Part shown: positions 34,024-42,177 of the stretch, in pieces | How positions within the stretch are numbered: the first letter of the stretch is position 1 | Layout: the number at the start of each line of letters is the position of its first letter | Assembly (NCBI RefSeq): GCF_018860385.1 | Contig: NZ_JAHKPH010000012.1 | Location: forward strand, 3,160 to 67,159 | Source of the DNA: Reinekea forsetii | GTDB taxonomy: Bacteria; Pseudomonadota; Gammaproteobacteria; Pseudomonadales; Natronospirillaceae | Length of the DNA: 64,000 nucleotides | Direction: 5' to 3' | Position numbers and translations under genes: made by a program | Notes under the pieces: model-generated | Databases searched by the model: none | What the model was told of the DNA's origin: nothing | Seen by the model: the letters and a program-made list of their open reading frames with translations, nothing else

Positions 34024-34053
34024 AAAAAAGCGCATCTAAGATGCGCTTTTTTT
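34024..34053. terminator. bidirectional intrinsic terminator
   Basis: GCGCATC-TAA-GATGCGC flanked by A6 on one side and T7 on the other. It lies between the oxidoreductase (+) and the DUF4382-type lipoprotein (-) and serves both. Confidence 0.9.
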
Positions 34054-34069: not shown

Positions 34070-34948
34070 TTACTCTTGCTCATCATCTAAATCATCATCT
34101 TCGTCTTCATCTAGCTCGCCGTCGTCGTCTAAATCTTCACCATATTCAGCTGACTCTTCCATGTTGTCTAACACAACATTGGCTATCTCACTGCCGGCTT
34201 CGATGGTAACGCTGTTGCCATCGAACACGCTTAAATCGATGTTGGCATTGCTGTTAGTTTCTGTATTTGAAAAATCAAACCAAGCATCCGTTCTAAATGC
34301 CACAATGACATCATTTAAACCGGCACCGTCGACCATAAACCCTTTTGAAGCTTCGCCTTCACCGCTGAATTCAAATTCAATATCTTCATCGGTTGAAAAG
34401 GTAAAGGCAACACCTTCTGTGGCGTTTACTTTTAAATAGGTGCCTGAAAAGTGAATGGTTTTTCCGGTTAAAATTGCTTTTGTAGTGTCGTCTAACCCCA
34501 CCAGAGAATCAACATCGGCTTCTTTTAGCGGCTCAAGCTCAAACTCGATGTCAGTGTAATTGCCGGCTTTAATGTCAACTTGTGGCAACTCTGGGTAAGT
34601 GGTGTTGGTAGCGAGGTCGACCACAAAAGGACCTACAAATTCAACTTCTTCAGATTCAACCTCGTCTTCATTATCAGCGTAGTCGTCTTCGTGCTCTAAC
34701 TCAATTTCATCCACGACAACCCAAGCGCTGTCTAGGGTTAAGGTTCCCAACGTAGCGCCCGACGCATCAATTACGCTAATGTCTACGCTCGCGCTGGTGT
34801 TTCGAGCAACCGTGCGGATGGCCTGTTTTGATGCGGTACTCGCCTTTGCTTGAATATCGAGTGTAACAGCGCCCTTGCTGCCATCGCTTGGGTTACAGCC
34901 TACGAGTGCTATCGAAGTGAATAAGATGCTTGGAAGTAACTTTTTCAT
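34070..34948 (-). CDS. acidic DUF4382-type lipoprotein with EF-hand-like loop
   Basis: A 292-residue lipoprotein: the signal peptide ends in a lipobox LVGC with Cys18. The body is beta-rich and resembles DUF4382 proteins (VDISVIDASGATLGTLTLDSAWVVVDEIEL, IKAGNYTDIEFEL, GKTIHFSGTYL). Two acidic patches stand out: EHEDDYADNEDEVESEEVE in the middle and the last ~22 residues. In the latter, D272-E283 reads DLDDDGELDEDE, matching the calcium-binding EF-hand loop at positions 1, 3, 5, 6, 8 and 12. It is divergent from the two-component operon and shares its promoter region. Calcium binding is inferred. Confidence 0.75.
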   Translation of the reverse strand: MKKLLPSILFTSIALVGCNPSDGSKGAVTLDIQAKASTASKQAIRTVARNTSASVDISVIDASGATLGTLTLDSAWVVVDEIELEHEDDYADNEDEVESEEVEFVGPFVVDLATNTTYPELPQVDIKAGNYTDIEFELEPLKEADVDSLVGLDDTTKAILTGKTIHFSGTYLKVNATEGVAFTFSTDEDIEFEFSGEGEASKGFMVDGAGLNDVIVAFRTDAWFDFSNTETNSNANIDLSVFDGNSVTIEAGSEIANVVLDNMEESAEYGEDLDDDGELDEDEDDDLDDEQE

Positions 34949-35094
34949 AATGTTGATCTCTTGGGTGAATGTGTAAACACAGATTAACCCGCTCGCGCAC
35001 CCTACAATGTTCTTGAAACGTTCTAAGTTTGTAGTCTTGCTGTAATTAAAGGCCGTAGTCGATTAAAGTAGGCGAATGAGAATCATAGAGACAA

Positions 35095-36681
35095 ATGATG
35101 AACAACCTGTTTACGCAAATTTACATACGCATGGCGATTGGCTTTATTGCGACAACGCTCCTAATTCTAGCGCTTCTAACGGTATTAGTAGATCGGCGCT
35201 ACGAATCGTTTGTTGAAAAGAGCGCAATCCCGGCCGGTAATTTAGTGTCATCAGGTTGGCTCGCCGCCTCAGGTGATGAGCAAACGGCTTGGCTAGATTT
35301 AGTATCGAGTTTGACAAATACTACTTGGCAGCTCAATGAAATGAGTTTAAATAGCCCGATAGAGATCATCCATTCTTCTTGGATTCAACAAAGTGCTGAA
35401 GTTAATATCCGATTAACCAATCAATTGGCCGTTTGCGTCAAGGTGTCTAATTGGCGCGACTGGTACATTGGAATTGGTTGGCTAATTTTAAACGACATTT
35501 CGCTGCAGCCAAGCGATAAGCGCCAAGCCTACTTTGAACAATTACAGCTAGAGATGCCTTGGCAACTCGAAAGAGTCGACCGAGAAGAAGAATCGTTGTC
35601 TAAACTTTCACTACGTCAGCTGAAATCTGGCCAAGCGGTTTTTTTACCGGCTCAAGACCAGCAATCAGATTGGCTTTACTTACCCGGCGGTGCAGAACAA
35701 GTCATTAAAATTGGTCCGATAGCTCGATTCGAAACTTTCAGCATTTTACAGTGGTTTGGCGTATTAACTTTGGCGCTGTCTATTTTAGCTATAGCTTTAA
35801 CCCTAATTACTCGCCCCATTTATAATCGAATAGAAGATATTCGTCGTGGTTTGGCTGACTTTACTGAAAACAAAGGTTACTTAAGCCTACCCACTGATTA
35901 TTCAGACAACTTAGGTTTAATGGCAAAACACATTGAAGATTTATCCAACGATCTCATTAAACAAGCCGAACAGAATAAGCAATTGAATATGGCTGTTTCA
36001 CACGATTTGAAAACGCCGATCGCGAGACTTAAATTTGCACTAGAAATGGCAAAAGAAAACCAAAGTTTCGACCAACTTGAAACAATGGATCGAGATATCC
36101 AATTGCTCACCAATCTTATAAACGAGTTATTGCTCTACCACCAACTAAATTCAACGAAACACTCAGAATTAGAGCCGTTTGACATCGCACATTCACTTTA
36201 TAAACAGGTTCGTGAAACTGTTCCGTCAAATTTTGAGCTTAAGTTGCAAGTGAGCCACACAAAAATGATGGTGCCGATAGACCCCAGCCATTGGAGACGC
36301 TTGTCACAAAACTTAATTGATAATGCGATGCAATATGGACAAAAAAGACTGTCCATTCACTTGAAAGCGCACAAACACTGCATTGAATTTAAAGTTAATG
36401 ACGATGGGCCCGGATTAACACCACGCGATTTTGAAAGCTTTTTAATGCCGTTCCAACGTAAAGATCAAAGCCGAGGCACACTAAACTTGAATCATGGATT
36501 AGGGTTAAGTTTAGTACAAGCAGTTACAGCACACTATGATGGTCAATTATCTCTAGAACCATCTGCACTCGGTGGCTGTTGTATTTCTGTCACTTTACCG
36601 CTTTGGCCTAAAACTCAAACTGGGTTAACGATCGAGAATTCTTCTTCGCCTTTATTCAACGAAAAGAGGGTATTGCTATGA
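35095..36681 (+). CDS. sensor histidine kinase of acidic-protein operon
   Basis: A 528-residue membrane kinase. TM1 is at about residues 12-31 and TM2 at about 217-239, with a ~185-residue periplasmic sensor between them that I cannot assign to a known family. HAMP (RPIYNRIEDIRRGLADF) and the phosphoacceptor His303 in MAVSHDLKTPIARLKFALEMA follow, then a HATPase domain (LSQNLIDNAMQYG, VNDDGPGLT, NHGLGLSLVQ). The domain order resembles RstB-type kinases. Its stop overlaps the start of the acidic gene by 4 nt, and the partner regulator closes the operon. Confidence 0.9.
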   Translation: MMNNLFTQIYIRMAIGFIATTLLILALLTVLVDRRYESFVEKSAIPAGNLVSSGWLAASGDEQTAWLDLVSSLTNTTWQLNEMSLNSPIEIIHSSWIQQSAEVNIRLTNQLAVCVKVSNWRDWYIGIGWLILNDISLQPSDKRQAYFEQLQLEMPWQLERVDREEESLSKLSLRQLKSGQAVFLPAQDQQSDWLYLPGGAEQVIKIGPIARFETFSILQWFGVLTLALSILAIALTLITRPIYNRIEDIRRGLADFTENKGYLSLPTDYSDNLGLMAKHIEDLSNDLIKQAEQNKQLNMAVSHDLKTPIARLKFALEMAKENQSFDQLETMDRDIQLLTNLINELLLYHQLNSTKHSELEPFDIAHSLYKQVRETVPSNFELKLQVSHTKMMVPIDPSHWRRLSQNLIDNAMQYGQKRLSIHLKAHKHCIEFKVNDDGPGLTPRDFESFLMPFQRKDQSRGTLNLNHGLGLSLVQAVTAHYDGQLSLEPSALGGCCISVTLPLWPKTQTGLTIENSSSPLFNEKRVLL

Positions 36682-37139
36682 AACGATTGTGCGTAACAAT
36701 TCTATTGTTACTCCCTAACATAGCCCTAACCGATGACTGGGGTAGTTGGGATGATTTACCCGACAACTTGCTTCAAGAAACCGATACATTAAAGCTCATG
36801 AATGAATTGGATCGTTTATTCTCAAGTGACTCTGCAGCGGTAGATGAAGAGCTAGATACTTGGTTGAATCAGCTCAACTTACGCCTTAATATTTCCGAAG
36901 AAGATTTAGAAGCATTATTGGAAGAGTTAGACGAAAGTGAAGCCGAGCGCCTAGAGGATTGGTTAGAAGACCAGCTCGAGCTACAAGAAGATGCCTTGGA
37001 GTTGAAAGAGGAAGATGAGGAGGATTTTGACGACGAAGATGATGTAGAAATAGATGAAGAAGAAGAAGAGGAGGAGGAGTTCGAAGACGAAGATGATGAG
37101 GAAGATGACGACGATGAAGACGACGAGGACGATGAGTGA
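36678..37139 (+). CDS. exported, extremely acidic protein
   Basis: A 153-residue protein with a signal peptide (residues 1-18, KRLCVTILLLLPNIALT), a helical middle with repeated short acidic/leucine units (LEALLEELDE, LEDWLEDQLELQ), and a C-terminal tail of 43 residues (111-153) of which 39 are Asp or Glu. The composition suggests binding of divalent cations or of basic surfaces, but no known domain is visible. It overlaps both neighbours by ATGA, so it is translationally coupled to the kinase and the TPR-type protein. Low-complexity regions like this defeat homology calls, so the function is open. Confidence 0.75.
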   Translation: MKRLCVTILLLLPNIALTDDWGSWDDLPDNLLQETDTLKLMNELDRLFSSDSAAVDEELDTWLNQLNLRLNISEEDLEALLEELDESEAERLEDWLEDQLELQEDALELKEEDEEDFDDEDDVEIDEEEEEEEEFEDEDDEEDDDDEDDEDDE

Positions 37140-38155
37140 TTCTTTTTAGAGCTCTAACCATAGGAAGTTTAATGGCTGCCATGGCAACAACAACGTTGGC
37201 TTCCGATTGTGAATGGGAGGAGACATTAACCGAAATCATTGAGCATCAAGATCAGAATAGCCCGTACAATACACTATCTGAACTCGATGCATTAATGTCA
37301 AAATGCCCGAGCACCCCAAGGCTGTATCTTGAAAAAGGTACAATGCTCTACAAATTACAACGATATAATGACGCGGTTGATCAATGGCAATACGCGCTCG
37401 ATACATATGAATTACCCGAAAATGTAGCCTTAAAAGTAAAGTTAAAAATACTCGACGCACAAAAAAAACAAAAGAACCAACTACGTCATTTATTATTAGC
37501 GCGAGTATCGTTTCAATCACAATCTAATGAAGAGCAGCAGTACGGAATTCTATCCTTGCAAGGTAAATCTACATTTAGCTTCCCGGCTTTAGAATTACTT
37601 AAACAACCGGCTTATTTCGAAACCTATGCTGGCTACGGTGGGTTAGTAAAACAGCCCATAGTACAATCACCTGACTCTAGTTCAAATACATTGTTAATGT
37701 TCCAAGCGGGCAGTGCTATCAATTGGCAAAACCTTAGGCTTCCCGTTTCACTTGGGTTAAATTATATAAATAAGGAACCCAGCTTTAACCTGTCTACTTC
37801 ACCTCGGCTCAAATGGAAAAGCATGGAAGCCTCTACAGGTTTCGATTACGACCTAAGCGATGGCACTCTAGAAGTGGAGCCTAAAATTCGCTGGAAAGGG
37901 TCTGAACTGTTAATAGAAGTCAGCGCAACGCATCAAAAACAGTGGCAAACATTGAATGCTGAAGCCAGCATGGGTAAAAAGTGGAATGTTGAAGCTGCTG
38001 GAGAATACGACCTTATCGACGCCGAGCATGAGCTGGGTATCGCACTGGCTAATCGTATCACCTCAAATTTAAAGCTTTCTGTAAGCGCAAATGCTGTGAT
38101 GTCTGAATCCAGCTACTGGGAAACCAAAGCCGGACTACTTTGGAAAATTTATTGA
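37136..38155 (+). CDS. exported TPR / beta-strand-rich protein, likely outer membrane
   Basis: A 339-residue protein with a signal peptide (about 1-22, ending TTTLA), a TPR-like helical pair (about 40-115, including LYLEKGTMLYKLQRYNDAVDQWQYAL) and a C-terminal ~200 residues of alternating short strands (SLGLNYINKEPSFNLSTSPRLKWKS, LEVEPKIRWKGSELLIEVSAT) ending in an aromatic residue (LLWKIY). This suggests a beta-barrel behind a TPR domain, a layout used by Slam-type export proteins, although this protein is smaller. I do not recognise its family. It lies between the acidic protein and the response regulator in a tight operon. Confidence 0.65.
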   Translation: MILFRALTIGSLMAAMATTTLASDCEWEETLTEIIEHQDQNSPYNTLSELDALMSKCPSTPRLYLEKGTMLYKLQRYNDAVDQWQYALDTYELPENVALKVKLKILDAQKKQKNQLRHLLLARVSFQSQSNEEQQYGILSLQGKSTFSFPALELLKQPAYFETYAGYGGLVKQPIVQSPDSSSNTLLMFQAGSAINWQNLRLPVSLGLNYINKEPSFNLSTSPRLKWKSMEASTGFDYDLSDGTLEVEPKIRWKGSELLIEVSATHQKQWQTLNAEASMGKKWNVEAAGEYDLIDAEHELGIALANRITSNLKLSVSANAVMSESSYWETKAGLLWKIY

Positions 38156-38157
38156 TC

Positions 38158-38844
38158 ATGCAAACCGATTTTGAATACGCAAATATCTGTTTAGTTGAAG
38201 ACGATGCTGGGTTAGCTGATTTAACGGCCACCTATTTAGAAAGCCACGGCTATTCAGTTGACGTAATTGCCAATGGCCTAGAGGCGGTAAAACGCATTCC
38301 TGAAACAAACCCTGATTTAGTCATCTTAGATATAATGCTGCCGGGCTTAGATGGCATGGCTGTTTGTCAAAAACTTAGGCAATCTTTCTATGGACCTATA
38401 CTTTTTTTAACAGCACGGGGTGATTCTATCGATGAGATACTGGGGTTAGAAATTGGAGGCGATGACTATTTAGCGAAGCCTGTTGAACCCCGCCGGTTAT
38501 TGGCACGAGTAAGAGCGATGTTACGTCGCCAAACAGCTGAAACATCCAAAACATTTGGCGTTCAAGGTCAAAGTGATTTTAAGTTTGATAAAGTAAAACA
38601 AGAAGTTTACTTTCAAGACTCACGGGTAGAGTTAACACAGCCCGAATTCCGGTTACTGCTTTGCTTAAAAGAAGCACAGGGTAAAATAGTGTCTCGTGAT
38701 GACATTATGAAAACGATCCGAGGCATCGAATACGATGGGGTATCGCGCACCGCCGATATTCTGGTTTCAGAGGTACGAAAAAAGCTGCCACAAGGCGAAT
38801 GGATAAAAACCATTCGTGGTCAGGGCTATACCTGGACAGAATAA
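38158..38844 (+). CDS. OmpR-family response regulator
   Basis: A protein of about 228 residues with a receiver domain (acceptor Asp58 in LVILDIMLPGLDG, Lys in LAKPVEP) and a C-terminal OmpR winged helix (ELTQPEFRLLLCL, VSRTADILVSEVRKKL, IRGQGYTW). I chose the ATG at 38158; a TTG at 38140 is an alternative. It is the natural partner of the kinase at 35095-36681 even though two exported-protein genes stand between them, an unusual order. It is convergent with metR, with a gap of 5 nt. Confidence 0.9.
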   Translation: MQTDFEYANICLVEDDAGLADLTATYLESHGYSVDVIANGLEAVKRIPETNPDLVILDIMLPGLDGMAVCQKLRQSFYGPILFLTARGDSIDEILGLEIGGDDYLAKPVEPRRLLARVRAMLRRQTAETSKTFGVQGQSDFKFDKVKQEVYFQDSRVELTQPEFRLLLCLKEAQGKIVSRDDIMKTIRGIEYDGVSRTADILVSEVRKKLPQGEWIKTIRGQGYTWTE

Positions 38845-38849
38845 TGTAC

Positions 38850-39740
38850 TTATGGGTGCTGTGTATTTCGTGCTATTTGAATCAATGCTTTGAGATAATC
38901 AGTGTCTTTGTCGACATCTCGAACCCCTAAGTAGATTTTTTTAGGTACGCCTTTCTTCCCTAACCTAACGGTCTTAATCGGCAGCTTAGATTGGTATTCT
39001 TGCGCAAGCCACTTAGGCAACGCAGCCACCCCTCGTTTGCTAGCCACCATCTGCAACATAATGTCTGTGGTTTCAATGGTTTTATGTTGCTTTGGCGTGA
39101 TGCCGGCAGGCGATAAAAAATGCGTAAAAATATCAAGCCGATTTTGCGCAACAGGATACGTAATCAGCACTTCTTCCATTAAATCTCTAGGCTCTGCAGA
39201 AGCTTGTTTCGCCAACTTATGTGCATTATTCACAACGAGCACTTGCTCATATTCAAAAACTGGCTCGAAACTAGAACCAGGTTTAATGATAGGGTCTGGC
39301 GTAACCAAAAGGTCTATTTCATGGCCATACAAAGCGCCCATTCCACCAAATTGAAACTTTTGCTTCACATCGATATCGACATTGGGCCATTGTTCTAGAA
39401 ATGGCGACACCACCTTGAGCAGCCATTGGTAGCAGGGGTGGCATTCCATACCTATGCGTAATTCGCCTCGATGACCTTGTGCGAACTGCTTTAGCTGCGC
39501 CTCAGCATGTTCTAATTGTGGCAAAATTCGGTTGGCGACGTTTAATAGATAATGTCCAGATTGAGTGAGTTGCAGTGTGCGCCCTTCTCTCAGCCAAATG
39601 GCCGTGCCTAACTTTTGCTCTAGTTTTCTCATGGTATGGCTTAGTGCAGACTGAGTTAAACATAAGCTCTGTGCGGCGGCGGTTAAGGTACCTAAGCGCT
39701 CGGTTTCTCTTATTATCGAAAAGTGAATTCTTTCCAGCAC
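38850..39740 (-). CDS. metR: LysR-type activator of methionine genes
   Basis: A LysR-type regulator of about 297 residues. The HTH is at about residues 4-62 (GTLTAAAQSLCLTQSALSHTMRKLEQKLGT), followed by the effector domain. Aligned with MetR the natural start is a GTG at 39740 (LERIHFSIIRETERLGTL), 15 codons inside the longest frame; there is no strong ribosome-binding site for either. The divergent neighbour metE, 109 nt away, fixes the identity: MetR activates metE with homocysteine. I found no perfect TGAA-N5-TTCA site between them. Confidence 0.88.
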   Translation of the reverse strand: MLERIHFSIIRETERLGTLTAAAQSLCLTQSALSHTMRKLEQKLGTAIWLREGRTLQLTQSGHYLLNVANRILPQLEHAEAQLKQFAQGHRGELRIGMECHPCYQWLLKVVSPFLEQWPNVDIDVKQKFQFGGMGALYGHEIDLLVTPDPIIKPGSSFEPVFEYEQVLVVNNAHKLAKQASAEPRDLMEEVLITYPVAQNRLDIFTHFLSPAGITPKQHKTIETTDIMLQMVASKRGVAALPKWLAQEYQSKLPIKTVRLGKKGVPKKIYLGVRDVDKDTDYLKALIQIARNTQHP

Positions 39741-39849
39741 ATAACAACCATGAATATAATTAATGAGTTGGTGAATATATACCATTATACGTCATGAATA
39801 AATATCCTTAACCTAGCGCCACTGACTCATTGTTACAAAGGATTATCTC

Positions 39850-42177
39850 ATGGCGTTAACACATAACTTAGGGTTCCCAAGAATTGGAGCGAACCGAGAA
39901 TTAAAATTTGCACTCGAATCTTTCTGGCAGGGCAAAAGTACCGAGGCCGATTTACATGCCACCGCACAAGCCATTCGATCAAAAAACTGGCAAGTACAAG
40001 CTTCGCTCGATTTTACACCTGTGGGTGATTTTTCATTATACGATCACGTACTCGATACCAGTTTTATGTTGGGTCACTTACCTGAGCGCGCTAAAAACAT
40101 AGATGGCAATCGATTAGATCAATATTTTAGCGTGGCCCGAGGGCGTTCTGCTCGTAACCAAAACACAAATGCCTGCCCTCACATACATGCCGGTGAAATG
40201 ACAAAATGGTTTGATACAAATTACCATTACATTGTGCCAGAGCTCACTCAAGGCTCTGAGTTTAAGCTCAATGCAACGGCATTGTTGAGGCAAATAAAAG
40301 AAGCTCAACAACTTGGCCGTGCCATAAAACCCGTGATCATTGGTCCGGCAACTTATTTATGGTTAAGCAAACCAAAAGACAAAAGCCATCCTCTGGAATT
40401 TGCTCAGCAATTAGTAGAGCAATACATTGATTTACTCACATTACTGAGCGAGCACCAAGTGGAATGGGTGCAAATAGATGAACCCATTTTAGTAACTGAG
40501 CTCGAAAAACCTTGGTTAGATACCATTGATGCATTGTACAAGGCGCTTTCTGACACCCCAATAAAACTATTACTGACTACCTATTTTGGCAGCTTAGGTG
40601 AAAACCTACACTTCACCAGCCAACTCCCTGTTGCGGGCTTTCACTTAGACGCTATCAATGCTCGGCACGAAGTAGAGTTTTTAACGAACCAATTAACAGA
40701 CAACCAAATACTTTCTTTAGGCGTCATAAACGGTCGTAACGTATGGGTTAGCGACTTAAACGCCATACTAAACTGGCTAGAACCTATTTCAAACAAGCTC
40801 AAACATCGACTTTGGTTAGCGCCATCCTGTTCATTGATTCATGTACCGGTGGATTTAAATAGCGAAGATAAACTGGATGATGAAATTAAGTCTTGGCTTT
40901 CATTTGCGCATCAAAAGCTGCAAGAGTTGGCGATTTTAAAACAGGCACTTAACCACGGTCGTCACACGGTAGAATCGGAACTGGATCAAAATAGCAAAGC
41001 TCTAGAAAGCCGTGCAAGTTCAGCGCGAATACATAATCCAATTGTGCAAAATGCATTGAGCGCAATAACCAAAACCGACGAAGCTCGTGATAGCGGCTAC
41101 GAAACGCGTGCAGCAATTCAATCAAAGCAGTTTCAGTTACCGCTGTACCCAACTACGACAATTGGTTCGTTCCCGCAAACTGCGGACATTCGTAAAATAC
41201 GCCAACAATTCAAACGAGGCGATATACGATTCAGTGACTATCAACATAAAATCCGTGAAGCCATCAATGAATGTGTTTCCATTCAAGAAGCCATTGGCTT
41301 AGATGTTTTGGTTCATGGTGAAGCAGAGCGCAATGATATGGTGGAATACTTTGGTGAGCAGCTTCAAGGATACACGTTTAGCCAATTTGGCTGGGTACAA
41401 TCTTATGGATCTCGTTGTGTAAAACCCCCTATTTTATTCGGAGACATAAGCCGCCCGTTCCCGATGACGGTCAGTTGGACAAAGTATGCGCAGGCACAAA
41501 CAAGCAAACCCATGAAAGGAATGCTTACTGGCCCTGTCACTCTCCTTAACTGGTCATTTGTGCGCGATGACCAACCAAGATCTGTTACGGCACTGCAGCT
41601 TGCACTAGCCATAAAATCTGAAGTACTGGATCTTGAGAATGCAGGCATCAACATAATTCAAATAGATGAAGCCGCATTGCGTGAAGGGCTACCGTTGAAA
41701 AAATCAGAATGGCAGGCTTACTTAGATTGGGCGATTAAAGCATTCAAGGTCACCGCCAATGGCGTAAAAGATAGCACCCAGATTCATACGCACATGTGCT
41801 ATTCGGAGTTTAACGATATTATTGAAGCCATTGCCGAAATGGACGCCGATGTAATCACCATAGAAACCTCCCGTTCTGACATGGAATTATTGGATGTTTT
41901 CCAACACTTTAATTACCCGAACCAAATAGGCCCCGGTGTTTACGACATCCACTCGCCTAATTTACCCACCAAAGAGAGCATTGTTGCTTTAATGCGTAAT
42001 GCCGCGGAGCGCATACCCAAAGAAAGATTGTGGGTAAACCCAGACTGTGGTTTAAAAACTCGACAATGGTCTGAGGTAAAACCAGCGCTACTAAACATGG
42101 TTGCGGCGGCACAGCAGCTTCGAAAACAAGAGCAACCTAAACTCGCACAAGTTCAACCTTTAGAAGCCCTATCTTAA
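39850..42177 (+). CDS. metE: cobalamin-independent methionine synthase
   Basis: MetE transfers the methyl group from 5-methyltetrahydropteroyltri-glutamate to homocysteine. The 775-residue protein has two related barrels. The catalytic C-terminal one contains [12 protein letters not shown]-type sequence (here [17 protein letters not shown]), [18 protein letters not shown], and the zinc site with His and Cys of THMCYSEF and the last Cys in [10 protein letters not shown]. It is slightly longer than the E. coli enzyme (753), mostly in the inter-domain linker. The presence of MetE together with CobT suggests both B12-independent and B12-dependent routes. Confidence 0.97.

Follow-up and report, generated by a model that had tools for sequence, protein, structure and literature searches.

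A conserved two-component cassette with a predicted Slam-like outer-membrane barrel and a small exported W-x-x-W protein in Reinekea and its relatives

Introduction

Few systems are known in which outer-membrane events reach inner-membrane kinases. In some strains of P. aeruginosa the outer-membrane barrel MipA and the lipoprotein MipB serve as co-sensors of ParS, a kinase that responds to cationic peptides, and mipA genes adjoin a two-component system in most genomes examined (PMC10936184). The same paper cites NlpE/OmpA and CpxA for signalling from an outer-membrane component to an inner-membrane kinase. The Slam/DUF560 proteins, in turn, translocate lipoproteins and soluble proteins encoded alongside them, and known Slam cargo bear an eight-stranded barrel domain (PMC8406197, PMC7857515).

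Here we analyse a locus within a stretch of 64,000 nucleotides from Reinekea forsetii (the window). The original prediction, made from the sequence, described a two-component operon that senses and manages a cation or a cationic agent at the envelope, with very acidic exported proteins as its binding or buffering parts. Like the MipA/MipB-ParRS polymyxin co-sensor, this cassette places a predicted outer-membrane barrel and an exported partner alongside an OmpR-family two-component system, and ParS is the nearest solved fold to the sensor of its kinase. In MipA/MipB-ParRS the regulator controls the envelope partners; the counterpart here is a conserved operator-like block upstream of the operon, a predicted site. 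The parts themselves differ considerably. The cassette barrel carries a TPR domain and has no PF06629 match, unlike MipA, and its partner is a short protein with a W-x-x-W motif rather than a beta-lactamase-fold lipoprotein such as MipB; the accessory genes lie between kinase and regulator, and the sensor has two modules. Signalling from an outer-membrane component to an inner-membrane kinase, as in NlpE/OmpA-CpxA and RstB/EnvZ-type sensing, is what we propose for the cassette, which differs from Cpx in having no NlpE or OmpA homologue.

With the Slam/DUF560 proteins (SlipAM, PF04575; type XI secretion) the cassette barrel shares a signal, N-terminal TPRs and a 14-strand barrel, the last by prediction, and as at Slam loci cargo-like exported or lipidated proteins are encoded alongside it. 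It differs in being shorter (339 aa), in scoring below the Pfam cut-off and in lying inside a two-component operon, and no TbpB-like cargo barrel was found at the window locus. Our literature search, which covered few subscription papers, returned no description of the cassette and nothing relevant on Slam with two-component systems, or on Reinekea with two-component systems and the outer membrane. The cassette is conserved and undescribed, and resembles a known kind of arrangement, an outer-membrane partner with a two-component system, but with non-homologous outer-membrane parts.

Results

Re-reading the sequence and its open reading frames placed the five genes (Table 1) exactly where they had been predicted, and the separation of kinase and regulator genes by two exported-protein genes was borne out, the same order being found in relatives. 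The description of the four co-directional genes as a chain of ATGA overlaps holds only in part. Kinase and W-x-x-W genes do overlap in this way (36678-36681), whereas the overlap between W-x-x-W and barrel genes is GTGA, with a GTG start (37136-37139), and barrel and regulator genes do not overlap: the TGA of the former occupies 38153-38155 and the regulator ATG, at 38158, begins two bases past the stop. An alternative regulator start, TTG at 38140, would overlap the barrel gene. The hairpin behind the lipoprotein gene comes from direct reading and was not among the results of the pattern-based terminator scan; scanning for consensus promoters and terminators gave no more than shuffled sequence did.

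Table 1. Features of the cassette locus, in window positions
Feature	Position	Strand	Description
Hairpin GCGCATC-TAA-GATGCGC between A6 and T7	34030..34053	.	Probable terminator behind the lipoprotein gene
DUF4382 lipoprotein gene, divergent	34070..34948	-	292 aa; outer-membrane type; orthologues in the same place
Operator CTACAATGTTCTTGAAACGTTCTAAGTTTGTAG	35002..35034	.	Predicted response-regulator site common to both divergent promoters
-10-like element TAAAGT of the kinase operon	35064..35069	+	40 nt past the direct repeat
Sensor histidine kinase gene	35095..36681	+	528 aa; HisKA and HATPase_c Pfam matches
Small exported W-x-x-W protein gene	36678..37139	+	153 aa
Layout of the small W-x-x-W protein			Signal peptide, DDWGSWDDLPDNLL at the mature N-terminus, middle region, acidic tail
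Slam-like TPR/barrel protein gene	37136..38155	+	339 aa; GTG start; predicted outer-membrane
OmpR-family response regulator gene	38158..38844	+	228 aa from ATG; Response_reg and Trans_reg_C

The window genome is of Reinekea type and was placed in the Saccharospirillaceae. Within this family, the order kinase, W-x-x-W protein, TPR-barrel, regulator is kept in 11 loci (the window, L062 of the same species, L010, L012, L013, L014, L063, L015, L017, L064 and L066; kinase and regulator of L017 were located by tblastn, as longer antisense reading frames overlie both). Most of them also have the divergent DUF4382 lipoprotein gene; none was seen at L064, and at L066 it lies 2.5 kb downstream. Response-regulator orthologues in the cassette are 44-57% identical. 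The gene set is therefore kept in relatives, which removes one ground on which the original prediction was to be abandoned.

Three exceptions in the family concern the small protein. In Gynuella (L011) there are two, one adjoining the barrel and one between kinase and regulator; L065 has the small W-x-x-W protein with kinase and regulator and no barrel at the locus, the barrel lying elsewhere in the same genome; and L016 has small protein and barrel without kinase or regulator, its one-contig genome giving no match to the kinase-sensor profile and no close regulator. (The sensor alignment does not include a reading frame of L016 that was initially aligned as the kinase but encodes an unrelated protein.) Because of these exceptions, the small W-x-x-W protein appears to be the common partner of the barrel and of the kinase/regulator pair. 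The barrel-less copy at L065 faces three tandem canonical DUF4382 lipoprotein genes (L065:8512-11744), which are divergent from it.

From the small-protein profile the cassette had seemed confined to the Saccharospirillaceae, an idea rejected when the kinase-sensor profile led to related kinases, and to the arrangement itself, in further families of the order. The cassette occurs in divergent form at L129 and L130 and, in another family, at L155, where the series is W-x-x-W protein, kinase, second W-x-x-W protein, TPR-barrel and regulator. L156 has kinase, a barrel that passes the SlipAM model and regulator, with no small protein; at L159 the kinase is followed by an acidic exported protein, with a TPR-barrel match at the contig end. 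Elsewhere in the order, eight loci (L161-L164, L166-L169) have regulator-kinase pairs of the related kinase without accessory genes. Cassette-bearing kinases do not form one clade on the kinase tree, a pattern that fits either an ancient cassette with scattered losses or several separate gains. The cassette is kept as one unit in the Saccharospirillaceae and in a looser version in other families of the order. A Slam-like barrel gene followed by two reading frames with W-x-x-W (EEWADW; ENWGDW) was also seen at L160:5482-8318, with no kinase of the cassette family adjoining.

The periplasmic sensor of the kinase (about residues 31-216) was predicted by AlphaFold2 as two alpha/beta modules (pLDDT 92). 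In a Foldseek search its best match was ParS (8ju7; probability 1.00, TM 0.62-0.65 on the target, E 7.5e-3), with RisS lower; this is a likeness of fold only, no sensor match having an E-value below 0.001. The nearest NCBIfam kinase models were RstB and EnvZ, both with scores well below the equivalog cut-offs (for RstB, NF007898, 176 bits against a cut-off of 478). The proposal of an envelope-sensing two-component system is supported. As to what is sensed, the likeness to ParS keeps a cationic agent plausible; cation buffering is unlikely as a shared function, as discussed below.

For the barrel protein, an AlphaFold2 model built from 13 family sequences (pLDDT 86, pTM 0.72) gave a signal, TPR helices at residues 27-113 and 14 beta strands at 116-338, so that the N-terminal TPR domain and C-terminal 14-strand barrel of Slam proteins are both present in the model. 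Foldseek returned outer-membrane barrels such as OmpG as the nearest PDB folds; a PDB sequence search with the protein returned generic TPRs only. In an order-wide profile search the best matches outside the family were largely Slam-like TPR-barrels, and hhalign gave E-values of 1e-9 to 1e-15 against Slam-like groups, compared with 1e-5 to 1e-8 against other TPR proteins, the likeness covering the TPR part and first strand and not the whole barrel. The window protein had no match above cut-off to PF04575, a model that the positional equivalent at L156, between related kinase and regulator, passes (26.9 bits against 22). No Pfam match to a TbpB-type eight-strand cargo barrel was obtained in the small proteins or lipoproteins scanned. 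By its predicted layout and nearest relatives, the protein is Slam-like; by the Pfam test it is not a Slam. What had been called a TPR/beta-rich protein thus keeps its TPR part and is better described, on structure prediction, as a Slam-like TPR domain with a 14-strand outer-membrane barrel.

The small exported protein has 39 Asp/Glu among its last 43 residues, as first noticed. When the window's 83 reading frames of 100 aa or more were ranked by their most acidic 43-mer, the divergent lipoprotein came next with 23, and the third had 16. That lipoprotein is acidic as predicted, with a lipobox (LVGC), Asn at +2 and a D/E-rich end (20 in the last 30 residues); it passes PF14321 (DUF4382) with 28.9 bits against a cut-off of 25, and some orthologues score below this cut-off. 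All four D/E codons are evenly used in the tail of the small protein (GAA 11, GAG 10, GAT 10, GAC 8), so the tail is not a simple slippage repeat, and it looks held at the protein level rather than as a DNA repeat.

The constant part of the small protein is the start of its mature form, [DEN]-W-x-x-W and mostly W-x-x-W-D-x-L-P-D, with signal cleavage, placed by reading the sequences, predicted directly before this motif. Among signal-bearing reading frames at the fetched loci, 12 of 94 have W..W within residues 15-45 and all 12 are cassette proteins, a count that filters loci chosen for analysis and is not a genome-wide rate. The tails, by comparison, vary widely: at one extreme D/E makes up 89% (net -38), and at the other the tail is Pro/Gly-rich (net +3 to -4). 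They are acidic, with net charges of -17 to -38, in all Reinekea loci and in type-A Saccharospirillum and Gynuella loci; orthologous operons of the same family carry roughly neutral Pro/Gly-rich tails at the same position, together with non-acidic DUF4382 partners, while the W-x-x-W N-terminus stays constant. Genome G018 has one locus of each tail type. The acidic tail was accordingly rejected as the defining feature, and is only one lineage's version of a replaceable tail. Independent co-variation of tail type with lipoprotein type was also considered and was weakened: the two tail types require one change on the kinase tree, so that the association of acidic tail with acidic lipoprotein is real but rests on about one event. 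A third tail type, a long repeat of DIKPGTVTKP type, occurs in the W-x-x-W protein at L129:7764-8894.

The predicted operator is a 33-bp block with a GTTC direct repeat at 11-bp spacing inside CTACAA/TTGTAG flanks, conserved while the remaining intergenic region has diverged. A matrix (PWM) built from four Reinekea sites had its top match at the equivalent position in three held-out loci (L013, L063, L015) and not in six others (L014, L017, L064, L065, L011, L066). A TANAGT -10-like element lies 40-41 nt past the repeat in five loci and 20 nt past it in a sixth. Each of four genomes contains a single match without mismatches to the degenerate operator pattern. A wider regulon was sought by operator search and none was found, two-mismatch matches being equal to the control. 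On these two results the regulator probably controls mainly this divergent promoter pair, as an activator.

Discussion

Together, these observations suggest an outer-membrane co-sensor two-component system made up of barrel, W-x-x-W partner, ParS-like kinase and operator output, a reading to which we give a probability of roughly one half. The gene set, its conserved order, the W-x-x-W motif and the operator-like block can be read in the sequences themselves; the folds and locations of barrel and sensor are predicted. The Slam-like barrel would span the outer membrane, its TPR part facing the periplasm. Its partner would be the W-x-x-W protein, whose mature N-terminus is probably bound by the TPR domain and which would also touch the kinase at its tandem ParS-like sensor domain. 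An event at the outer membrane, be it an agent that binds or does damage or a block of the barrel, would alter the holding of the W-x-x-W protein and so switch the kinase. The response regulator would then bind the single operator and activate both its own operon and, as the chief output, the DUF4382 lipoprotein. Being acidic here and Pro/Gly-rich elsewhere, the small protein's tail would be an adjustable element that may act as an electrostatic antenna or as a spacer. We infer the contacts between barrel, small protein and kinase and the direction of signalling, and we favour a cationic agent or the loss of divalent cations as the signal.

That the W-x-x-W protein links barrel and kinase is likely, and its pairing with the barrel alone (L016, L160) or with kinase and regulator alone (L065) is consistent with the co-sensor reading; the absence of a small protein from L156, and of both barrel and small protein from the pair-only relatives, argues against it. 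More tentatively, we suggest that sensing is done by the Slam-type barrel itself: its TPR domain would capture the W-x-x-W protein, whose release or occupancy would be read by the tandem ParS-like kinase, and the only strong target of that kinase would be the divergent promoter for the barrel operon and the outer-membrane lipoprotein. If true, the barrel-as-sensor version would be a previously undescribed class of trans-envelope signalling. The cassette would be a compact, conserved and rearrangeable example of an outer membrane reporting to a kinase, complete with candidate operator, and through it Slam-like barrels, which are known for secretion, would be linked to signalling. The W-x-x-W at the mature N-terminus is a motif that lends itself to simple tests, and the cassette displays an extreme acidic tail that is swappable for a Pro/Gly tail inside one family.

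The strongest rival to the co-sensor is a secretion unit with feedback, which we consider possible but on balance unlikely. Here the Slam-like barrel would export the W-x-x-W protein, with a cargo signal at the mature N-terminus and a disordered tail, and might also deliver the DUF4382 lipoprotein to the cell surface, with the role of the two-component system limited to adjusting export capacity. Slam/DUF560 proteins do move the products of neighbouring genes (PMC8406197, PMC7857515), the W-x-x-W protein adjoins the barrel at every Saccharospirillaceae barrel locus seen, and pairs of barrel and W-x-x-W protein exist without a kinase (L016, L160). It is harder to reconcile with L065, which keeps the W-x-x-W protein with kinase and regulator and has its barrel only elsewhere in the genome, or with the lack of any Pfam match here to the eight-stranded barrel of known Slam cargo.

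We find it improbable that the acidic tails of exported protein and lipoprotein bind or buffer calcium, magnesium or another metal while the kinase reads the cation level. Charge is retained in the tails of all Reinekea and type-A loci, both acidic proteins co-occur and the codon mix is not a slippage product, yet orthologues of the same operon have near-neutral Pro/Gly tails with non-acidic lipoprotein partners, which argues that cation binding cannot be what the family shares, and the tail-lipoprotein link again counts as about one event. Buffering by acidic tails is thus unlikely as the shared function, and the original view of the acidic proteins as an essential binding part is not supported, given these same orthologues. 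Least probable of all, in our estimation, is an ordinary two-component system accompanied by unrelated envelope passengers, the neighbourhood being kept by shared ancestry and operon inertia. Such passengers would fit the related regulator-kinase pairs that lack accessory genes, but divergent families have proteins of the same types between kinase and regulator, also with rearranged partners, and the accessory genes have been duplicated and reshuffled in linked pairs.

Sister two-component operons, in which DUF3019 and outer-membrane-type proteins adjoin regulator and kinase, were seen in relatives of Reinekea and Gynuella (L131:4261-7834, L132:4395-7940, L134:4337-7540), MipA (PF06629) and DUF3019 being assigned by Pfam at L131, and by arrangement and similarity at L132 and L134. 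These MipA-DUF3019-regulator-kinase operons share with the cassette a related kinase and regulator, an outer-membrane barrel and a small exported protein; they differ in their barrel and small-protein families and gene order, and their kinases fall in a separate clade. The window also has a MetR-like LysR regulator gene divergent from a MetE-like methionine synthase gene (38850-42177), which adjoins the cassette and is apparently unrelated to it.
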